From: Nitrospira sp. KM1
Lineage (GTDB): Bacteria; Nitrospirota; Nitrospiria; Nitrospirales; Nitrospiraceae
Direction of reading: 5' to 3'
NCBI RefSeq assembly: GCF_011405515.1
Contig: NZ_AP022671.1
Location: forward strand, 2,418,001-2,482,000
Length of the DNA: 64,000 nucleotides
Positions 25,381 through 32,901 of the stretch are shown here, piece by piece. The position numbers and the translations under genes were made by a program. The notes below the pieces were generated by a model, which ran no database searches, was not told where the DNA came from, and worked only from the letters and a program-made list of their open reading frames with translations. The first letter of the stretch is position 1, and the number at the start of each line of letters is the position of its first letter.

Positions 25381-26796
25381 ATGAACGCGCCAATGGACAA
25401 AGTTTTTACGATCCTGTTCGTGGAAGATAACGGGGGAGACGTCGAAATGTTTCTCCGGACGATCGAAGATGAACTTCCCCGCGAGGAGGATGAAGAGGTC
25501 GAACTCGTGCTGGCCGCTCGTGCAGAGGGAGGCCTCAAAATTCTCGATGAACGGCGGATCGATTTGGTTATTACCGAAATCCGGTTGCCCGGGATGAACG
25601 GGATCGAATTCCTGCAGCGAATTCAGGCAAGGGATCGCCGTATTCCTGTCATTATCATGAGCTGGGTTGATACCGTGGACACGGCCGTGGAGGCCATGCG
25701 GTGTGGCGCATTTGATTACGTGACCAAACCGTTCGAAAAAATGGATCTTGCAGCCAGAATTCATCGGGCCATGCGCATCTCAGAAATCTTGTTCCGCTAT
25801 GAGCCGGCGCAGCAAACAGAAACGCTTTCGTCCAAAGAGTTGATCGGGGTGAGCCCGCCGATTCGTCATGTGATGGCCATGATCGAAGCAGCCGCCCGCG
25901 TGCAATCCACAACCCTGATCATCGGAGAAACTGGTACGGGAAAAGAGTTGATCGCGAGAGCTATCCATGAACGAAGTGCCGAGCGAGATGGTCCGTTTCA
26001 GGTGGTCGATTGCACCACGTTCTCAGAAGGCACCGTCGACAGCGAGCTTTTCGGTCATGTTCGAGGAGCCTTCACAGGAGCCGTAGGCGACAAATTGGGC
26101 CTGATCGAACGAGGAATAGGCGGTACCCTGTTTCTGGATGAAATCGGCGATCTCCCTCTGCCTTTGCAGGCCAAGCTATTGAGAGTGTTGGAAGAAGGAG
26201 AAATGCGGGCCGTCGGCAGTGTGCAGATGAAGAAGGTCAGCGCAAGATTCATTGCGGCGACCAATCAGGAGTTGGCCGAAAAAGTCAAACGAAACGAGTT
26301 CCGGAAGGACCTTTTTTTTCGACTAAACGTCATGGCCATCAAGGTTCCTCCCTTGCGCGACAGATCACAGGATATTCCGCTGTTGGCCAGGCATTTCATG
26401 GCGCGATATGCAAAAGAGTTCGGTAAACCCGTCACCGATTTGCTTCCGTCTGCTGTAACAGAACTTGTCGCCTATCCATGGCCTGGCAACGTCCGTGAGT
26501 TGCGGAATGTCATGGAACGCGCGGTCATGTTGGCAAAAGGCAACCGCATCAGCAGTTCCGATGTCCTCGGTATGCTCCAATTTACCGACCAGGCGCGCAG
26601 AGGCTCGGACGACGACTATCTTGTATTGCCCTATGCCAAAGCCAAGGAAAAGGTACTTGAAGATTTTAGCCGGCGATATATTCAGAGCAAACTCGATCAC
26701 CACAATGGCAACGTCACACACGCGGCCGAGGAATCCGGGCTTCCCCGCCCCTATTTTTATGAAATCATGCGTCGATTCTTGAAGACTGACAAATGA
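25381..26796 (+). CDS. Sigma-54-dependent NtrC-family activator with a Glu-for-Asp receiver, next to nxrA
   Basis: This 471-residue protein has a receiver domain (8-130), an AAA+ domain (about 155-390) and a Fis-type helix-turn-helix at the C-terminus (HNGNVTHAAEESGLPRPYFYEIM). Walker A is GETGTGKE (183-190), the sigma-54 contact loop is GAFTGA (230-235) and Walker B is LFLDEIGD (251-258). The receiver keeps E15, D16, S95 and K117. However, the phospho-accepting Asp is replaced by Glu at E66 (LVITEIRLPG), which often mimics the active state. It would activate sigma-54 polymerase from upstream sites. No histidine kinase is adjacent. Its place 450 bp upstream of nxrA makes nxrAB the obvious target. 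Confidence 0.9.
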   Translation: MNAPMDKVFTILFVEDNGGDVEMFLRTIEDELPREEDEEVELVLAARAEGGLKILDERRIDLVITEIRLPGMNGIEFLQRIQARDRRIPVIIMSWVDTVDTAVEAMRCGAFDYVTKPFEKMDLAARIHRAMRISEILFRYEPAQQTETLSSKELIGVSPPIRHVMAMIEAAARVQSTTLIIGETGTGKELIARAIHERSAERDGPFQVVDCTTFSEGTVDSELFGHVRGAFTGAVGDKLGLIERGIGGTLFLDEIGDLPLPLQAKLLRVLEEGEMRAVGSVQMKKVSARFIAATNQELAEKVKRNEFRKDLFFRLNVMAIKVPPLRDRSQDIPLLARHFMARYAKEFGKPVTDLLPSAVTELVAYPWPGNVRELRNVMERAVMLAKGNRISSSDVLGMLQFTDQARRGSDDDYLVLPYAKAKEKVLEDFSRRYIQSKLDHHNGNVTHAAEESGLPRPYFYEIMRRFLKTDK

Positions 26797-26802
26797 CCTG
26801 CA

Positions 26803-26822
26803 GTGTCATTATTTACTGACAC
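26803..26822. promoter_or_regulatory. Upstream activator-like site 1 (TGTCA-N8-TGACA)
   Basis: This perfect palindrome GTGTCA-N8-TGACAC begins seven bases after the regulator's stop codon. It shares arm sequence and spacing with site 2 at 26885 and lies about 290 bases upstream of the candidate -24/-12 element. NtrC-type activators bind such dyads as enhancers. Binding by the adjacent regulator is inferred. Confidence 0.55.
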
Positions 26823-26884
26823 GAGGATCTTCAGAACGCTCTTCTCGCCGCTCCCACCAACTGATTCGTTGAACTAGCTATACA

Positions 26885-26902
26885 TGTCAGTACTTACTGA
26901 CA
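26885..26902. promoter_or_regulatory. Upstream activator-like site 2 (TGTCA-N8-TGACA)
   Basis: TGTCAGTA-CT-TACTGACA is a perfect 8-base inverted repeat, centred 81 bases after site 1. It has the same TGTCA-N8-TGACA frame. The right arm TACTTACTGACAC recurs almost exactly in the degenerate site 3. Confidence 0.55.
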
Positions 26903-26949
26903 CATAAAAAATCATAAATATCAGCTATTTATGTAGAGTTTTGTGTTCG

Positions 26950-26971
26950 GCAGTCAGGTATTACTTACTGC
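26950..26971. promoter_or_regulatory. Degenerate third activator-like site
   Basis: GCAGTCAG-N6-CTTACTGC is an imperfect dyad (7 of 8 arm positions pair). Its right part TACTTACTGCGAC matches 11 of 13 bases of site 2's right arm. It lies about 110 bases before the candidate -24 element, a usual enhancer distance. It may be a half-site. Confidence 0.35.
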
Positions 26972-27080
26972 GACTCCAAACGTCCGACCTACCGGTTGAA
27001 TTCGGCTGGCGATCAGTTTCATAAGACATTGATTTATAAGCAATAAATTGCTCACTGTTTCGTCCAAAGAGTTTGGAAAA

Positions 27081-27096
27081 TGGCATAGGGCTTGTA
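27081..27096 (+). promoter_or_regulatory. Candidate sigma-54 (-24/-12) promoter of nxrA
   Basis: TGGCAT-N5-TTGTA keeps the invariant GG at -24 and the exact spacing to the -12 element. It matches 9 of 12 defined positions of TGGCACG-N4-TTGCW; the -12 C is T. It is the best such match found by eye in the 450-bp gap. It would give a leader of about 140 bases before the nxrA ATG. Together with the upstream dyads and the adjacent activator this supports sigma-54 control. Confidence 0.5.
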
Positions 27097-27247
27097 AAGC
27101 ACACCTGGTGGCAAGGTTCCAATTTACGTATTTTTTTGGTTCAAGCGCTGGGCTAAGAGAAAGGGGGTGAGCGGAAAAGTGTTGGAAGCTTTTCATACCG
27201 AGAGTAGGTCAGAGCAGTAGGATTTTTTGAATTAGGAGGTGTTCGCG

Positions 27248-30200
27248 ATGCAGCTAACACAAGTATCACGTCGGCAATTCCTCAAAGCGACGGTCGGGAC
27301 TGTGGCCGCGATAGCGGTGGCGGACAAGGTCCTGGCATTAACCGCTTTGCAGCCGGTCATCGAGGTGGGCAACCCACTCGGTGATTATCCGGATCGCTCA
27401 TGGGAGCGGGTGTATCACGATCAATACCGCTATGATTCATCATTCACCTGGTGTTGTTCTCCGAATGACACCCACGGCTGTCGCATCCGCGCATTCGTCC
27501 GGAACGGTGTCGTCATGCGGGTGGAACAGAACTACGATCACCAAACGTATGAAGACCTGTACGGCAATCGCGGAACGTTCGCCCATAACCCGCGGATGTG
27601 TCTGAAGGGCTTCACCTTCCATCGCCGCGTCTACGGCCCGTATCGTTTGAAGGGCCCGCTGATGCGGAAAGGGTGGAAGGAATGGATGGATGCCGGCTCA
27701 CCTGAGCTGACGCCGGATGTGAAGCGCAAATACAAATTCGACAGCCGCTTTCTCGATGACATGATGCGCGTGTCCTGGGACACCGCGGCGACGTATGCGG
27801 CCAAAGGTTGCGTGGTCATTGCAACCCGCTACAGCGGAGAGGCCGGTGCGCGGCGGTTGCGCGAACAGGGTTATGCGCCGGAAATGATCGAGATGATGAA
27901 GGGCGCCGGAGTGCGGTGCTTTAAGCATCGGGCCGGTATGCCTGTCCTGGGGATCATCGGCAAAATGATGAACACCCGCTTCAACGGCGGAGTGTTGCCG
28001 CTCCTGGATTCGTGGATCCGCAAGGTCGATGCGGATCGGGCCCAGGGTGGAAAATATTATTCGAACTATACGTGGCACGGGGACCAGGATCCTTCTCACC
28101 CCTGGTGGAACGGCACGCAGAACTGCGACGTGGATCTTTCCGACATGCGCTTCTCCAAGCTGAACACCAGCTGGGGGAAGAATTTCGTCGAGAACAAGAT
28201 GCCGGAAGCGCACTGGAAGCTCGAGTCGATCGAGCGGGGCGCTCGCATCGTGGTCATCACTCCGGAATACAATCCAACGGCGTATCGGGCCGATTACTGG
28301 ATTCCAGTCCGTCCGGAGACCGATGCTTGTCTCTTCCTGGGTGCATGCAAAATCATCCTCGACGAGAACTTGCAGGACATCGATTACATCAAGCAGTTCA
28401 CGGACATGCCGTTGTTGGTCCGTACCGACACGCTGCAGTACTTGGATCCGCGGGACGTGATTGCGGATTACAAGTTCCCGGATTTCACCAAGTCCTACTC
28501 AGGCCGCATCCAGGCGCTCAAAGGTGAACAAATCGAGCGGTTGGGCGGATTCATGGTGTGGGATTCGAACAAGAAGCAACCGGTGGCTATCCATCGGGAG
28601 CAGGTCGGTCACCATTTCGTACAGACCGGTATTGATCCGGCATTGACGGGAACCTACCGCGTCAAATTACTGAACGGCCGAGAAGTGGACGTCGCGTCCA
28701 TCTATCAGCTGTACCTGGTGCACTTGCAGGACTACGATCTGGATACAACACATCAGATCACGAGGTCGCCGAAGGATCTCATTGTCCGTTGGGGCAGAGA
28801 TTCGGGCACGATCAAGCCTGCTGCGATGCACAACGGTGAAGGTGTATGTCACTACTTCCATATGACCGAAATGGGACGGGCCGCTGCATTCGTCCTGACC
28901 CTGACCGGTAACATCGGGAAGTTCGGCACCGGTTGTCATACGTGGTCCGGAAACTACAAGGCCGGTATCTGGAATGCCACGCCTTGGTCCGGAGCTGGCT
29001 TGGCGGTACACACGGGCGAGGATCCGTTCAATCAGACCCTTGATGCCAATGCGCACGGCAAAGAAATCAAGACCAAGTCCTACTATTACGGCGAGGAAGT
29101 CGGCTACTGGAACCACGGCGACACCGCGCTGATCGTGAACACCCCGAAGTACGGACGCAAGGTCTTTACCGGCAAGACACACATGCCGAGCCCCAGCAAA
29201 GTCCGCTGGGTCACCAACGTCAACATCCTCAACAACGCGAAGCACCATTACGACATGGTGAAAAACGTGGATCCGAACATCGAGATGATCGTGACCCAGG
29301 ACATCGAGATGACCTCGGACGTCAACCACGCCGATATCGCCTTTGCGTGTAACTCCTGGATGGAGTTCACCTATCCGGAAATGACCGCCACGGTGTCCAA
29401 TCCGTGGATCCAGATCTGGAAGGGCGGCATCCGGCCGTTGTACGACACGCGAAACGATGCCGACACCTTTGCAGGTGTGGCAGCCAAGTTGACGGAAATG
29501 ACGGGTGACGTGCGAATCCGTCAGGTGTTCCATTTCGTCTACCAGAACCGCGTCGACGTCTATGTGCAACGCGCACTCGACGCCAGTGCGACCTGCTACG
29601 GCTACAGCGCAGACGTCATGCTGAAGTCGGAGAAGGGCTGGATGGTCATGGGAAGAACCTATCCCCGCCACCCGCTCTGGGAAGAGACGAATGAAAGCAA
29701 GCCGCAGTGGACGCGTTGCGGACGGATCGAGACCTATCGAATCGAGCCGGAAGCCATTGAATACGGCGAGAACTTCATTGTCCACCGGGAAGGCCCGGAG
29801 GCGACGCCGTATCTGCCAAACGCGATCTTCACCACGAATCCGTACATCCGACCGGATGACTACGGGATTCCGATCACGGCGCAGCACCACGATGACAAGC
29901 ACATCCGCAACATCAAGCTGCCGTGGCAGGAAATCAAGCGGCACGGCAACCCGTTGTGGGAGAAGGGGTACCAGTTCTACTGCGTGACGCCCAAGACCCG
30001 GCACCGGGTGCACAGCCAGTGGTCGGTGAACGATTGGGTGCAGATTTACGAGTCGAACTTCGGCGATCCGTACCGCATGGACAAACGGACGCCGGGCGTC
30101 GGCGAGCACCAGATCCACATCAACCCGCAGGCGGCGAAAGACCGCGGCATCAACGACGGCGACTATGTCTATGTGGACGGCAACCCGGTGGACCGGCCCT

Positions 30201-30694
30201 ATCGGGGCTGGAAGCCCTCGGATCCGTTCTACAAGGTCGCGCGCTTGATGATTCGCGCGAAGTACAACCCGGCCTATCCGTATCACGTGACGATGGCGAA
30301 ACACGCTCCGTACGTGTCGACGGCGAAGTCGGTGAAGGGCCACGAGACGCGGCCGGACGGCCGGGCGATCGCGGTGGACACCGGCTATCAATCCAACTTC
30401 CGGTATGGGGCCCAACAGTCCTTTACCCGGTCGTGGCTGATGCCGATGCACCAGACCGACTCACTCCCGGGCAAGCACGCGATTGCCTGGAAGTTCAAGT
30501 GGGGCTATGCGATTGACCACCATGCGATCAACACGACCCCGAAGGAATGCTTGATCCGCATCACGAAGGCGGAAGACGGCGGCATCGGGGCCCGCGGGCC
30601 GTGGGAACCAGTCCGGACCGGGTTTACGCCGGGTCAGGAGAACGAATTCATGATCAAGTGGCTCAAAGGGGAGCACATCAAGATCAAGGTGTAA
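27248..30694 (+). CDS. nxrA: Nitrite oxidoreductase alpha (molybdenum) subunit NxrA
   Basis: This 1148-residue protein has the usual Nitrospira NxrA length. It begins with a twin-arginine leader, SRRQFLK (7-13), followed by a hydrophobic stretch, which fits periplasmic location. C69, C70, C78 and C118 lie where the FS0 [4Fe-4S] cluster of type II DMSO-reductase-family enzymes binds. The remainder is the bis-MGD molybdopterin fold. It oxidises nitrite to nitrate using water and passes two electrons to NxrB, the organism's main energy source. ATG 27248 has AGGAGGT seven bases upstream; an in-frame GTG at 27239 overlaps that site and was rejected. nxrB follows 71 bp later. Confidence 0.97.
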   Translation: MQLTQVSRRQFLKATVGTVAAIAVADKVLALTALQPVIEVGNPLGDYPDRSWERVYHDQYRYDSSFTWCCSPNDTHGCRIRAFVRNGVVMRVEQNYDHQTYEDLYGNRGTFAHNPRMCLKGFTFHRRVYGPYRLKGPLMRKGWKEWMDAGSPELTPDVKRKYKFDSRFLDDMMRVSWDTAATYAAKGCVVIATRYSGEAGARRLREQGYAPEMIEMMKGAGVRCFKHRAGMPVLGIIGKMMNTRFNGGVLPLLDSWIRKVDADRAQGGKYYSNYTWHGDQDPSHPWWNGTQNCDVDLSDMRFSKLNTSWGKNFVENKMPEAHWKLESIERGARIVVITPEYNPTAYRADYWIPVRPETDACLFLGACKIILDENLQDIDYIKQFTDMPLLVRTDTLQYLDPRDVIADYKFPDFTKSYSGRIQALKGEQIERLGGFMVWDSNKKQPVAIHREQVGHHFVQTGIDPALTGTYRVKLLNGREVDVASIYQLYLVHLQDYDLDTTHQITRSPKDLIVRWGRDSGTIKPAAMHNGEGVCHYFHMTEMGRAAAFVLTLTGNIGKFGTGCHTWSGNYKAGIWNATPWSGAGLAVHTGEDPFNQTLDANAHGKEIKTKSYYYGEEVGYWNHGDTALIVNTPKYGRKVFTGKTHMPSPSKVRWVTNVNILNNAKHHYDMVKNVDPNIEMIVTQDIEMTSDVNHADIAFACNSWMEFTYPEMTATVSNPWIQIWKGGIRPLYDTRNDADTFAGVAAKLTEMTGDVRIRQVFHFVYQNRVDVYVQRALDASATCYGYSADVMLKSEKGWMVMGRTYPRHPLWEETNESKPQWTRCGRIETYRIEPEAIEYGENFIVHREGPEATPYLPNAIFTTNPYIRPDDYGIPITAQHHDDKHIRNIKLPWQEIKRHGNPLWEKGYQFYCVTPKTRHRVHSQWSVNDWVQIYESNFGDPYRMDKRTPGVGEHQIHINPQAAKDRGINDGDYVYVDGNPVDRPYRGWKPSDPFYKVARLMIRAKYNPAYPYHVTMAKHAPYVSTAKSVKGHETRPDGRAIAVDTGYQSNFRYGAQQSFTRSWLMPMHQTDSLPGKHAIAWKFKWGYAIDHHAINTTPKECLIRITKAEDGGIGARGPWEPVRTGFTPGQENEFMIKWLKGEHIKIKV

Positions 30695-30765: not shown

Positions 30766-32055
30766 ATGCCTGAAGTCTATAACTGGCAACTGGGACGGAA
30801 GATGCTGTACCCGTACGAGGAGCGGCATCCGAAGTGGCAGTTTGCCTTTGTGTTCAACATCAATCGGTGTTTGGCCTGTCAGACCTGTTCGATGGCGGAC
30901 AAGTCGACGTGGCTGTTTTCGAAGGGGCAGGAGTACATGTGGTGGAACAACGTGGAGACGAAGCCCTACGGGGGGTATCCGCAGTTCTACGACGTGAAGA
31001 TCACGCAGTTGATCGAGCAGGTGAACCCGGGGGGGCAGGTGTGGAACGTGCGGGTGGGCCGCAAGCACCATGCGCCCTATGGGGTGTTCGAAGGGATGAC
31101 GATCTTCGACGCGGGGGCCAAGGTGGGCCAGGCGGCGATCGGCTACATCCCGACGGACCAGGAATGGCGCTTCGTGAACATCTACGAGGACACCGCCACC
31201 TCGATGCGCTCCTTGGTGGAAGGCATCGATAAGTCGGGGTTCTCGCGCGATGAACCGTGGCGGCTCACGGGCAGCAGCCTGCCGGAGCATGAGACGTTCT
31301 TCTTCTACCTGCAGCGGATCTGCAACCACTGCACATACCCGGGGTGTCTGGCGGCCTGTCCGCGCAAGGCGATCTACAAGCGGCCGGAAGACGGCATTGT
31401 GTTGATCGACCAGAACCGCTGCCGGGGGTACAAGAAGTGCGTGGAGCAGTGTCCGTTTAAGAAGCCGATGTACCGGGGGACGACCCGGGTGTCGGAGAAG
31501 TGCATTGCGTGCTATCCGCGGATCGAGGGCAAGGATCCGCTGACGGGCGGGGAGCCGATGGAGACGCGCTGTATGGCGGCGTGCGTGGGCAAGATCCGCA
31601 TGCAGAGCCTGGTGCGCATCGGCGAAGACGGCCTGTGGGCGGAGGACCGGTGGCATCCCCTGTACTACACCATTCGGGTGGAGCAGGTGGCGCTGCCCTT
31701 GTATCCGCAGTGGGGCACCGAGCCCAACGGCTTCTACATTCCGCCGCGGCATTCCCCCCGGGGCTATGCGCGGCAGATGTTCGGCCCGGGCGTCGACAAT
31801 GCCATTGAGAAGTACCTGGTGCCGAGCCGGGAGCTGTTGGCCGTCCTCCAACTCTGGCGGGCCAGCCAGCAGATCATCTTCCGCTACGACGTCATTCCGG
31901 GCCCGAAGGTGTTTGAAACCCAGATCCACGGGAAGCGCTTTGAGATGTACAACGATACCGTGCTGGGCTTCAACAAGTCGGGCAAGGAAGTGGCCCGCAT
32001 CCAGGTCGAAGAGCCCATCTACATTCGCCCCGCCGAACGGGTGAACTGGCTCTAG
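30766..32055 (+). CDS. nxrB: Nitrite oxidoreductase beta (iron-sulfur) subunit NxrB
   Basis: This 429-residue protein has four ferredoxin-like cysteine groups: C35/C38/C41, C186/C189/C194/C198, C219/C225/C229 with C246/C249, and C269/C273. They are expected to hold three [4Fe-4S] and one [3Fe-4S] cluster, as in NarH-like beta subunits. It wires electrons from NxrA toward a cytochrome-type gamma subunit or carrier. It has no signal peptide, so export with the folded NxrA through the Tat pathway is inferred. AAGGAGG precedes the ATG. Codon use is strikingly G-rich at third positions compared with neighbours. No nxrC or chaperone gene is adjacent. Confidence 0.97.
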   Translation: MPEVYNWQLGRKMLYPYEERHPKWQFAFVFNINRCLACQTCSMADKSTWLFSKGQEYMWWNNVETKPYGGYPQFYDVKITQLIEQVNPGGQVWNVRVGRKHHAPYGVFEGMTIFDAGAKVGQAAIGYIPTDQEWRFVNIYEDTATSMRSLVEGIDKSGFSRDEPWRLTGSSLPEHETFFFYLQRICNHCTYPGCLAACPRKAIYKRPEDGIVLIDQNRCRGYKKCVEQCPFKKPMYRGTTRVSEKCIACYPRIEGKDPLTGGEPMETRCMAACVGKIRMQSLVRIGEDGLWAEDRWHPLYYTIRVEQVALPLYPQWGTEPNGFYIPPRHSPRGYARQMFGPGVDNAIEKYLVPSRELLAVLQLWRASQQIIFRYDVIPGPKVFETQIHGKRFEMYNDTVLGFNKSGKEVARIQVEEPIYIRPAERVNWL

Positions 32056-32160: not shown

Positions 32161-32256
32161 AGACTGCTTCGTTCTTGCCACGCACCTGAAACACACACGA
32201 CAAACTTGGCGGATATTGGTAGTATCCGGCTCGGATACAAAACCACCAGAGGAATC

Positions 32257-32901
32257 GTGGGACAACGCAACAAGATGTGGGTCTATTTCTGTACGGGGGT
32301 CGTTCTGGTCCTGCTTTTCCTGGCGGAACAGGCCTACATCGTAAAGCAATGGCACGAAGCCCTGGACGCACAACATCGTCGCAATGCCATCAAGGTACAG
32401 CTGCTGACGCTGCAACGCCTGGCAGCTGATATCGACAACGGATTTCGAGGCTATGCCCTCATGCGGCAGAGCATGTTTCTGGCCCCGATGGTAGCCGCGG
32501 AAGCCGAAATCCCTCAGGTTCTCAGGAAATTGAACGAGCTGATGGAATCGACTCCATCCCTCCAGGGCACCGTTCAGGTCCTACGGAGACGGATGGAGGA
32601 ACTCGTGGATACCAAGCGTCGTCTCACCTTAAAAATCGACTCCGGACATCAAGAGGAAGTGCTGATGTACGTCCGAACCGGGGACGGGTTGGCTCTTGCC
32701 AAAACGATCGCTAATGCATTTGTTGATCTGGAAACGAAGATCGAGCGGGAATTTCACGACGCCGACATCCTCTACGCTGACAAGCAGAAACAAACGATGT
32801 GGCAACTCGTCGCCGCCCAAGGCGGTGCGGTCTTCGTCGGGGTGCTCGTCATCGAACTCTTGCTTTCCACCTTTTCATCATCTCATCGTCAGGAAGTATA
32901 G
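32257..32901 (+). CDS. CHASE3-like membrane sensor protein without an output domain
   Basis: This protein of about 214 residues has one membrane helix near the N-terminus (WVYFCTGVVLVLLFLAEQAYIV) and an extracytoplasmic helical domain. That domain carries LAADIDNGFRGYALMRQ, which resembles the CHASE3 motif (DxETGxRGYxLT). A second helix lies near the C-terminus (AVFVGVLVIELLL). No kinase, cyclase or methyl-accepting domain follows; it ends ten residues after the second helix. The start is uncertain (GTG 32257, ATG 32275, TTG 32206). It is read after the nxrB terminator, so it probably has its own promoter. Confidence 0.65.
   Translation: MGQRNKMWVYFCTGVVLVLLFLAEQAYIVKQWHEALDAQHRRNAIKVQLLTLQRLAADIDNGFRGYALMRQSMFLAPMVAAEAEIPQVLRKLNELMESTPSLQGTVQVLRRRMEELVDTKRRLTLKIDSGHQEEVLMYVRTGDGLALAKTIANAFVDLETKIEREFHDADILYADKQKQTMWQLVAAQGGAVFVGVLVIELLLSTFSSSHRQEV

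Follow-up and report, generated by a model that had tools for sequence, protein, structure and literature searches.

Enhancers of the NtrC/NifA type (glnA, nif) combine inverted-repeat upstream sites, a -24/-12 promoter and an AAA+ activator with the GAFTGA motif, and those of the nif type have an IHF site in between. A receiver Asp is usual in the response-regulator branch of the NtrC family, though not in all of its members, and an Asp-to-Glu phosphomimetic substitution activates NtrC. In the NtrC-like regulator NmpR, D54E is active and D54A inactive (PMC6211767). At orp1/orp2 of Desulfovibrio vulgaris, IHF is required, and its sites (WATCARxxxxTTR) lie in the stretch that separates the sigma-54 promoter from the activator site (PMC3897727). 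In Nitrospira, which are major nitrite oxidisers, the switching of the multiple nxr copies has so far been inferred only from nearby regulator genes. Sigma-54-dependent regulators were reported beside nxrAB in N. moscoviensis, N. defluvii and N. japonica (PMC6606698, citing Lucker 2010, Koch 2015 and Ushiki 2018); the available part of that paper is silent on operators, promoters and IHF sites, and on a kinase partner or a change at the phospho-site.

The locus described here lies in a 64-kb stretch of a Nitrospira genome (the window), in which positions 26804-27096, between the gene of an NtrC-type activator (P0001) and nxrA, very probably constitute the enhancer and promoter of nxrA(B), driven by the upstream-encoded activator, IHF and sigma-54 (Table 1). 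Activator dimers would bind three dyads, and the three bound dimers would form one AAA+ hexamer; an IHF-type protein would bend the DNA twice, once in the linker of dyads 2 and 3 and once in that from dyad 3 to the promoter, and the DNA loop would deliver the activator to the closed complex of RNA polymerase and sigma-54 at TGGCATAGGGCTTGTA, where its ATPase would open the nxrA promoter. nxrB is presumably co-transcribed with nxrA. After nxrB, a CHASE3-only gene (32206-32901) was found, relatives of which (56-57% identity) occur near nxr in two other loci (L183 and L185), with a related stretch in N. moscoviensis (L180).

Table 1. Coordinates of genes and predicted regulatory features in the window
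Feature	Position	Strand	Basis or remark
P0001, NtrC-type activator, 471 aa	25381-26796	+	PF00072, PF00158, PF02954; orthologs 62-87%
E66 codon, receiver phospho-acceptor position	25576-25578	+	ortholog alignments; aligned with NtrC1 Asp (4l4u, 1ny5)
Dyad 1 TGTCATTATTTACTGACA, predicted activator site	26804-26821	.	exact match, shuffles, triad fit
Dyad 2 TGTCAGTACTTACTGACA, predicted activator site	26885-26902	.	81 bp from dyad 1; exact match
IHF-like site A TATCAGCTATTTA (consensus WATCARNNNNTTR)	26919-26931	+	34 bp past dyad 2 start
Dyad 3 AGTCAGGTATTACTTACT, degenerate	26952-26969	.	67 bp from dyad 2; 7/10 arm bases
IHF-like site B AATCAATGTCTTA, perfect consensus	27022-27034	-	70 bp past dyad 3 start, 59 bp before -24
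Sigma-54-type -24/-12 element TGGCATAGGGCTTGTA	27081-27096	+	conserved in ortholog gaps
Shine-Dalgarno-like stretch AAAGGGGGTGAG in predicted nxrA leader	27160-27171	+	conserved in alignment
nxrA, nitrite oxidoreductase alpha subunit, predicted target	27248-30694	+	
nxrB, beta subunit	30766-32055	+	4Fe-4S domains; nxrA-nxrB order as in N. moscoviensis

Dyads in the gap and in related genomes

Exact matches to TGTCA-N8-TGACA number two in the window (0.08 expected) and four in the 4.51 Mb genome, and both of those in the window are in the gap, dyad 1 beginning 8 bp past the stop codon of the activator gene. When the gap was shuffled 20,000 times with its dinucleotides preserved, at least one dyad arose in 12 shuffles and two arose in none. 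The sequence-only reading of this DNA, which had proposed looping activation of nxrA by an NtrC-type protein, had listed two perfect dyads with the same arms and spacing, a degenerate third (26950-26971) and TGGCAT-N5-TTGTA at 27081, and all of these were found again; the third, weak in the window's species, is in register, exactly where relatives have a conserved third dyad. Conservation in close relatives had been set beforehand as a point on which that model could fall. The dyads are conserved, and the model survived, with support from the arms, spacing and order described below, from the adjacent GAFTGA activator and from RpoN; the IHF-like sites, the rigidity of the triad and the loss of a kinase had escaped it.

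P0001 has the architecture of an NtrC-family enhancer-binding protein (a receiver, a sigma-54 AAA+ domain with GAFTGA and a Fis-type HTH_8), with a TIGR01818 score of 365.7 bits, below the cut-off of 558.6 for orthologs of NtrC (NR_I) itself. Its orthologs (class A), in which the recognition helix GLPRxYFxEIMRRY is nearly invariant, are encoded directly upstream of nxrA, 360-510 bp ahead of it, across the family, and we compared 28 distinct gaps between such orthologs and nxrA, all from one bacterial family. The exact dyad occurs 28 times, spread over 25 of these gaps, and the same arms at spacers of 0-7 and 9-20 gave no match in any of the 28. In most gaps the centres of the three dyads are 81 and 67 bp apart, and nearly all measurable gaps stay within 2 bp of these values; a spacing of 77 and 71 bp, equal in total, fits four gaps as well or better, and a fit was impossible for L019, with a masked run in the gap, and for the degenerate L048, which is nxrA_4 of N. 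moscoviensis by position. The position of the third dyad mostly keeps 8-9 of the 10 arm bases in relatives, and the weakest dyad is dyad 2 in one large genus and dyad 3 in the window. The triad is, as judged from the sequences, almost rigid.

All loci belong to one family and many are closely related, so recent common ancestry without selection has to be considered as the source of this conservation. It is scarcely credible, however: mean column identity in the gap alignment is 47%, and dyad spacers and linkers have diverged, yet the arms, GGCA/TTG and the spacing persist, arms and spacing in the same order across at least seven genera. The contrast between arms and spacers largely refutes ancestry alone.

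Promoter and IHF-like sites

The promoter element has GG and G[CT] at the 10-bp spacing proper to a sigma-54 -24/-12 promoter, downstream of the predicted triad of activator sites, and its -12 element is TTGTA, not TTGC[AT], the textbook C being replaced by T. This T is nearly constant among class-A gaps, and GGCAY-N5-TTGTA is present in nearly every one of them, 108-197 bp ahead of the nxrA start (L024 carries CGGCACGTCACTTGAT in its place, and L178 carries TGGCACATCGCTTGTA, closer to the third dyad). The window's genome encodes RpoN (PF04552, E 3e-56), and transcription is predicted, from the usual distance between -12 and +1, to start near 27107. A Shine-Dalgarno-like stretch such as AAAGGGGGTGAG is kept, some 80 bp upstream of the nxrA start, in the leaders of class A and of a paralogous activator class, class B (e.g. 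L130, L136 and L148), and may serve in mRNA stabilisation or as the start of a short leader peptide. No known RNA family was found in the gap or in the nxrA leader.

Since a TGTCA palindrome is a shape common among operators and the -12 element is off consensus, the dyads might belong to a different dimeric protein (a repressor or a global regulator), with a sigma-70 promoter within the gap serving nxrA. We consider this unlikely, because no sigma-70-type promoter was found on the + strand of 26700-27300, because GGCAY-N5-TTGTA is kept alongside the dyads, and because the dyads accompany the adjacent activator and are almost absent elsewhere in three finished genomes. In addition, class B, about 50% identical to P0001, has another recognition helix and another operator: its nxrA upstream regions carry the textbook promoter CTGGCA-N6-TTGCT and a candidate operator GTYYC-N6-GTRAC, with 20 matches in 14 of 22 class-B gaps, concentrated at N6. 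In 79 upstream regions of other nxrA copies, mostly without either activator upstream but including a few class-A and class-B loci, the textbook sigma-54 element was found in 22, against 0.35 in shuffles.

Between the predicted enhancer and the promoter, both IHF-like sites match the consensus perfectly and are two of only five matches in the 64 kb. In 12 representatives, the best IHF scores of the dyad 2-3 and dyad 3-promoter linkers exceeded those of all 500 shuffles, as did that of the dyad 1-2 linker, and scores peak at fixed offsets, 34 bp past dyad 2 on the + strand and 70 bp past dyad 3 on the - strand. The raw distances from dyad 3 to the promoter have moderate helical periodicity (R 0.57 at 10.5 bp); when they are taken from IHF site B instead, two clear classes appear, 59-63 or 70-72 bp to the -24 element, one helical turn apart, with site B itself 69-72 bp from dyad 3. 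The exception, L133, is without a good B site at this offset, and its total falls 8-13 bp below the short class. The regulator tree requires the classes to have switched at least twice, and three times by parsimony; the helical-turn argument depends on these two to three independent changes. The genome encodes an IhfA that passes its NCBIfam cut-off and an IhfB-like protein that falls slightly short of its own (111.7 vs 115), and binding of such a protein to the two sites is predicted.

Dyad 1 lies almost on the activator's stop codon, as would be expected if the dyads chiefly autoregulated or terminated the activator gene and left nxrA unaffected. This is, however, very unlikely, because spacing is kept from dyad 1 to the nxrA promoter and the one-turn changes are on the promoter side, and a search of the gap for an intrinsic terminator or terminator-like site found none.

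Activator, kinase and other nxrA copies

P0001 has Glu (E66) in place of the phosphorylatable Asp of most orthologs. A histidine kinase, the CHASE3/HAMP/GAF-like domains of which were named by eye, is encoded directly upstream of the activator in G033, G072, G135, G028, G014, G012 and, twice, N. moscoviensis. Its ortholog is present in only seven of the 175 family genomes searched and always adjoins this activator (8/8), and all eight kinase-partnered activators have Asp at the phospho-site. The window's genome and three congeners, and separately G011, are without the kinase ortholog and have Glu; the genus of N. defluvii keeps Asp with the kinase absent, and the activator ahead of N. moscoviensis nxrA_4 (by position) has Gly. 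In several related lineages, the neighbouring kinase probably phosphorylates the activator; from the window's species the sensor kinase that formerly turned the activator on seems to have disappeared. Because the kinase is gone and the Asp is Glu, the activator of this species is suggested to be kinase-independent and may be locked on.

The window's genome has three long nxrA copies, including that of the window, and one fragment. A search for the dyad at every nxrA copy and throughout the genome, which the sequence-only reading had proposed, showed the exact dyad to be absent at the other copies of this genome. The two remaining exact dyads of the genome (C1:4322629 and C1:4400737) were rejected as operators and attributed to chance, one being inside a kinase-like coding region and the other in an unrelated intergenic region. 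The nxrA at C1:1128715-1131675 (L010) has a class-B activator with Asp, an adjacent kinase and, upstream, a textbook TGGCAATCTCCTTGCT promoter with none of the dyads. Ahead of the fragment (L011, C1:1870624-1871082), of about 150 codons, lie a small ORF and a CGGCACAACGTTTGCT that resembles a sigma-54 element.

Across N. moscoviensis, N. defluvii and UBC2, whose genomes are finished, there are five exact dyads: four are in activator-nxrA gaps, among them the single one of N. defluvii and both of N. moscoviensis (one of the latter before the most expressed nxrA), and the fifth precedes another UBC2 nxrA (L093). This dyad, TGTCATTACAAATTGACA, lies 172 bp before an nxrA without an adjacent class-A activator, possibly a target in trans. 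In N. moscoviensis (G147, C1:4270000-4289702, minus-strand genes), an 81%-identical class-A activator, by position NITMOv2_4539, is directly 5' of nxrA_5, the array of which has 80/67 spacing, IHF site B (8/9) at +70 and TGGCACAGGGCTTGTA at +129. According to PMC6606698, nxrA_5 is the most expressed nxrA (13,027 RPKM), nxrA_2 and nxrA_3 have 179 and 19 RPKM, and the NifA-like NITMOv2_4531 is placed upstream of the top nxrAB. We inferred the coordinates of N. moscoviensis locus tags from gene order; so positioned, nxrA_2 and nxrA_3 have incomplete arrays or class-B activators, and the two most diverged copies, nxrA_2 and nxrA_4, have incomplete arrays.

One may tentatively, and with less than even confidence, see P0001 as a natural phosphomimetic activator of nxrA: here and, independently, in one other lineage, the kinase would have been lost and Asp replaced by Glu, and a sigma-54 enhancer with three dyads, shaped by IHF, would keep nitrite oxidoreductase permanently on, with another nxrA copy of the same genome keeping a kinase-controlled paralogous system. 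The base-level map of operator, bend sites, promoter and candidate activator makes the switching of nxr directly testable in a heterologous sigma-54 reporter, and it yields a prediction of which nxr copies obey a sensor kinase and which are independent of one.

Comparison with known systems

In full-text literature searches, neither a promoter of nxrA nor an upstream activating sequence or a palindrome came up for Nitrospira, and no publication on the operator, the promoter or the loss of the kinase was found; Lucker 2010 or Koch 2015 may already mention the promoter. As far as this literature goes, the kind of system is known, and the operator, rigid geometry, IHF sites and kinase loss are undescribed. 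The regulators reported beside nxrAB (PMC6606698) belong to the same family and loci as P0001 and its orthologs.

Like NtrC/NifA enhancers, the nxrA gap has inverted repeats, a -24/-12 element, a GAFTGA activator and an IHF-like site in between. It differs from them in its three sites at fixed 81/67 spacing, in TTGTA at -12 and in nitrite oxidoreductase as the target. Its operator, TGTCA-N8-TGACA (TGT-N12-ACA), is also different from the TGCAC-type site of NtrC and from the TGT-N10-ACA of NifA, and the latter form (N6 between TGTCA and TGACA) occurs in none of the 28 gaps. Palindromic activator sites and IHF sites ahead of a sigma-54 promoter are shared with orp1/orp2 (PMC3897727), which, however, has two reported palindromic DVU2106 sites, another activator and other genes, and was tested experimentally. 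Finally, P0001 resembles NmpR D54E (PMC6211767) in its Asp-to-Glu change at an NtrC-like phospho-acceptor, which may likewise make it active; unlike the NmpR and NtrC mutants, however, it carries a natural substitution that accompanies the loss of a kinase gene.
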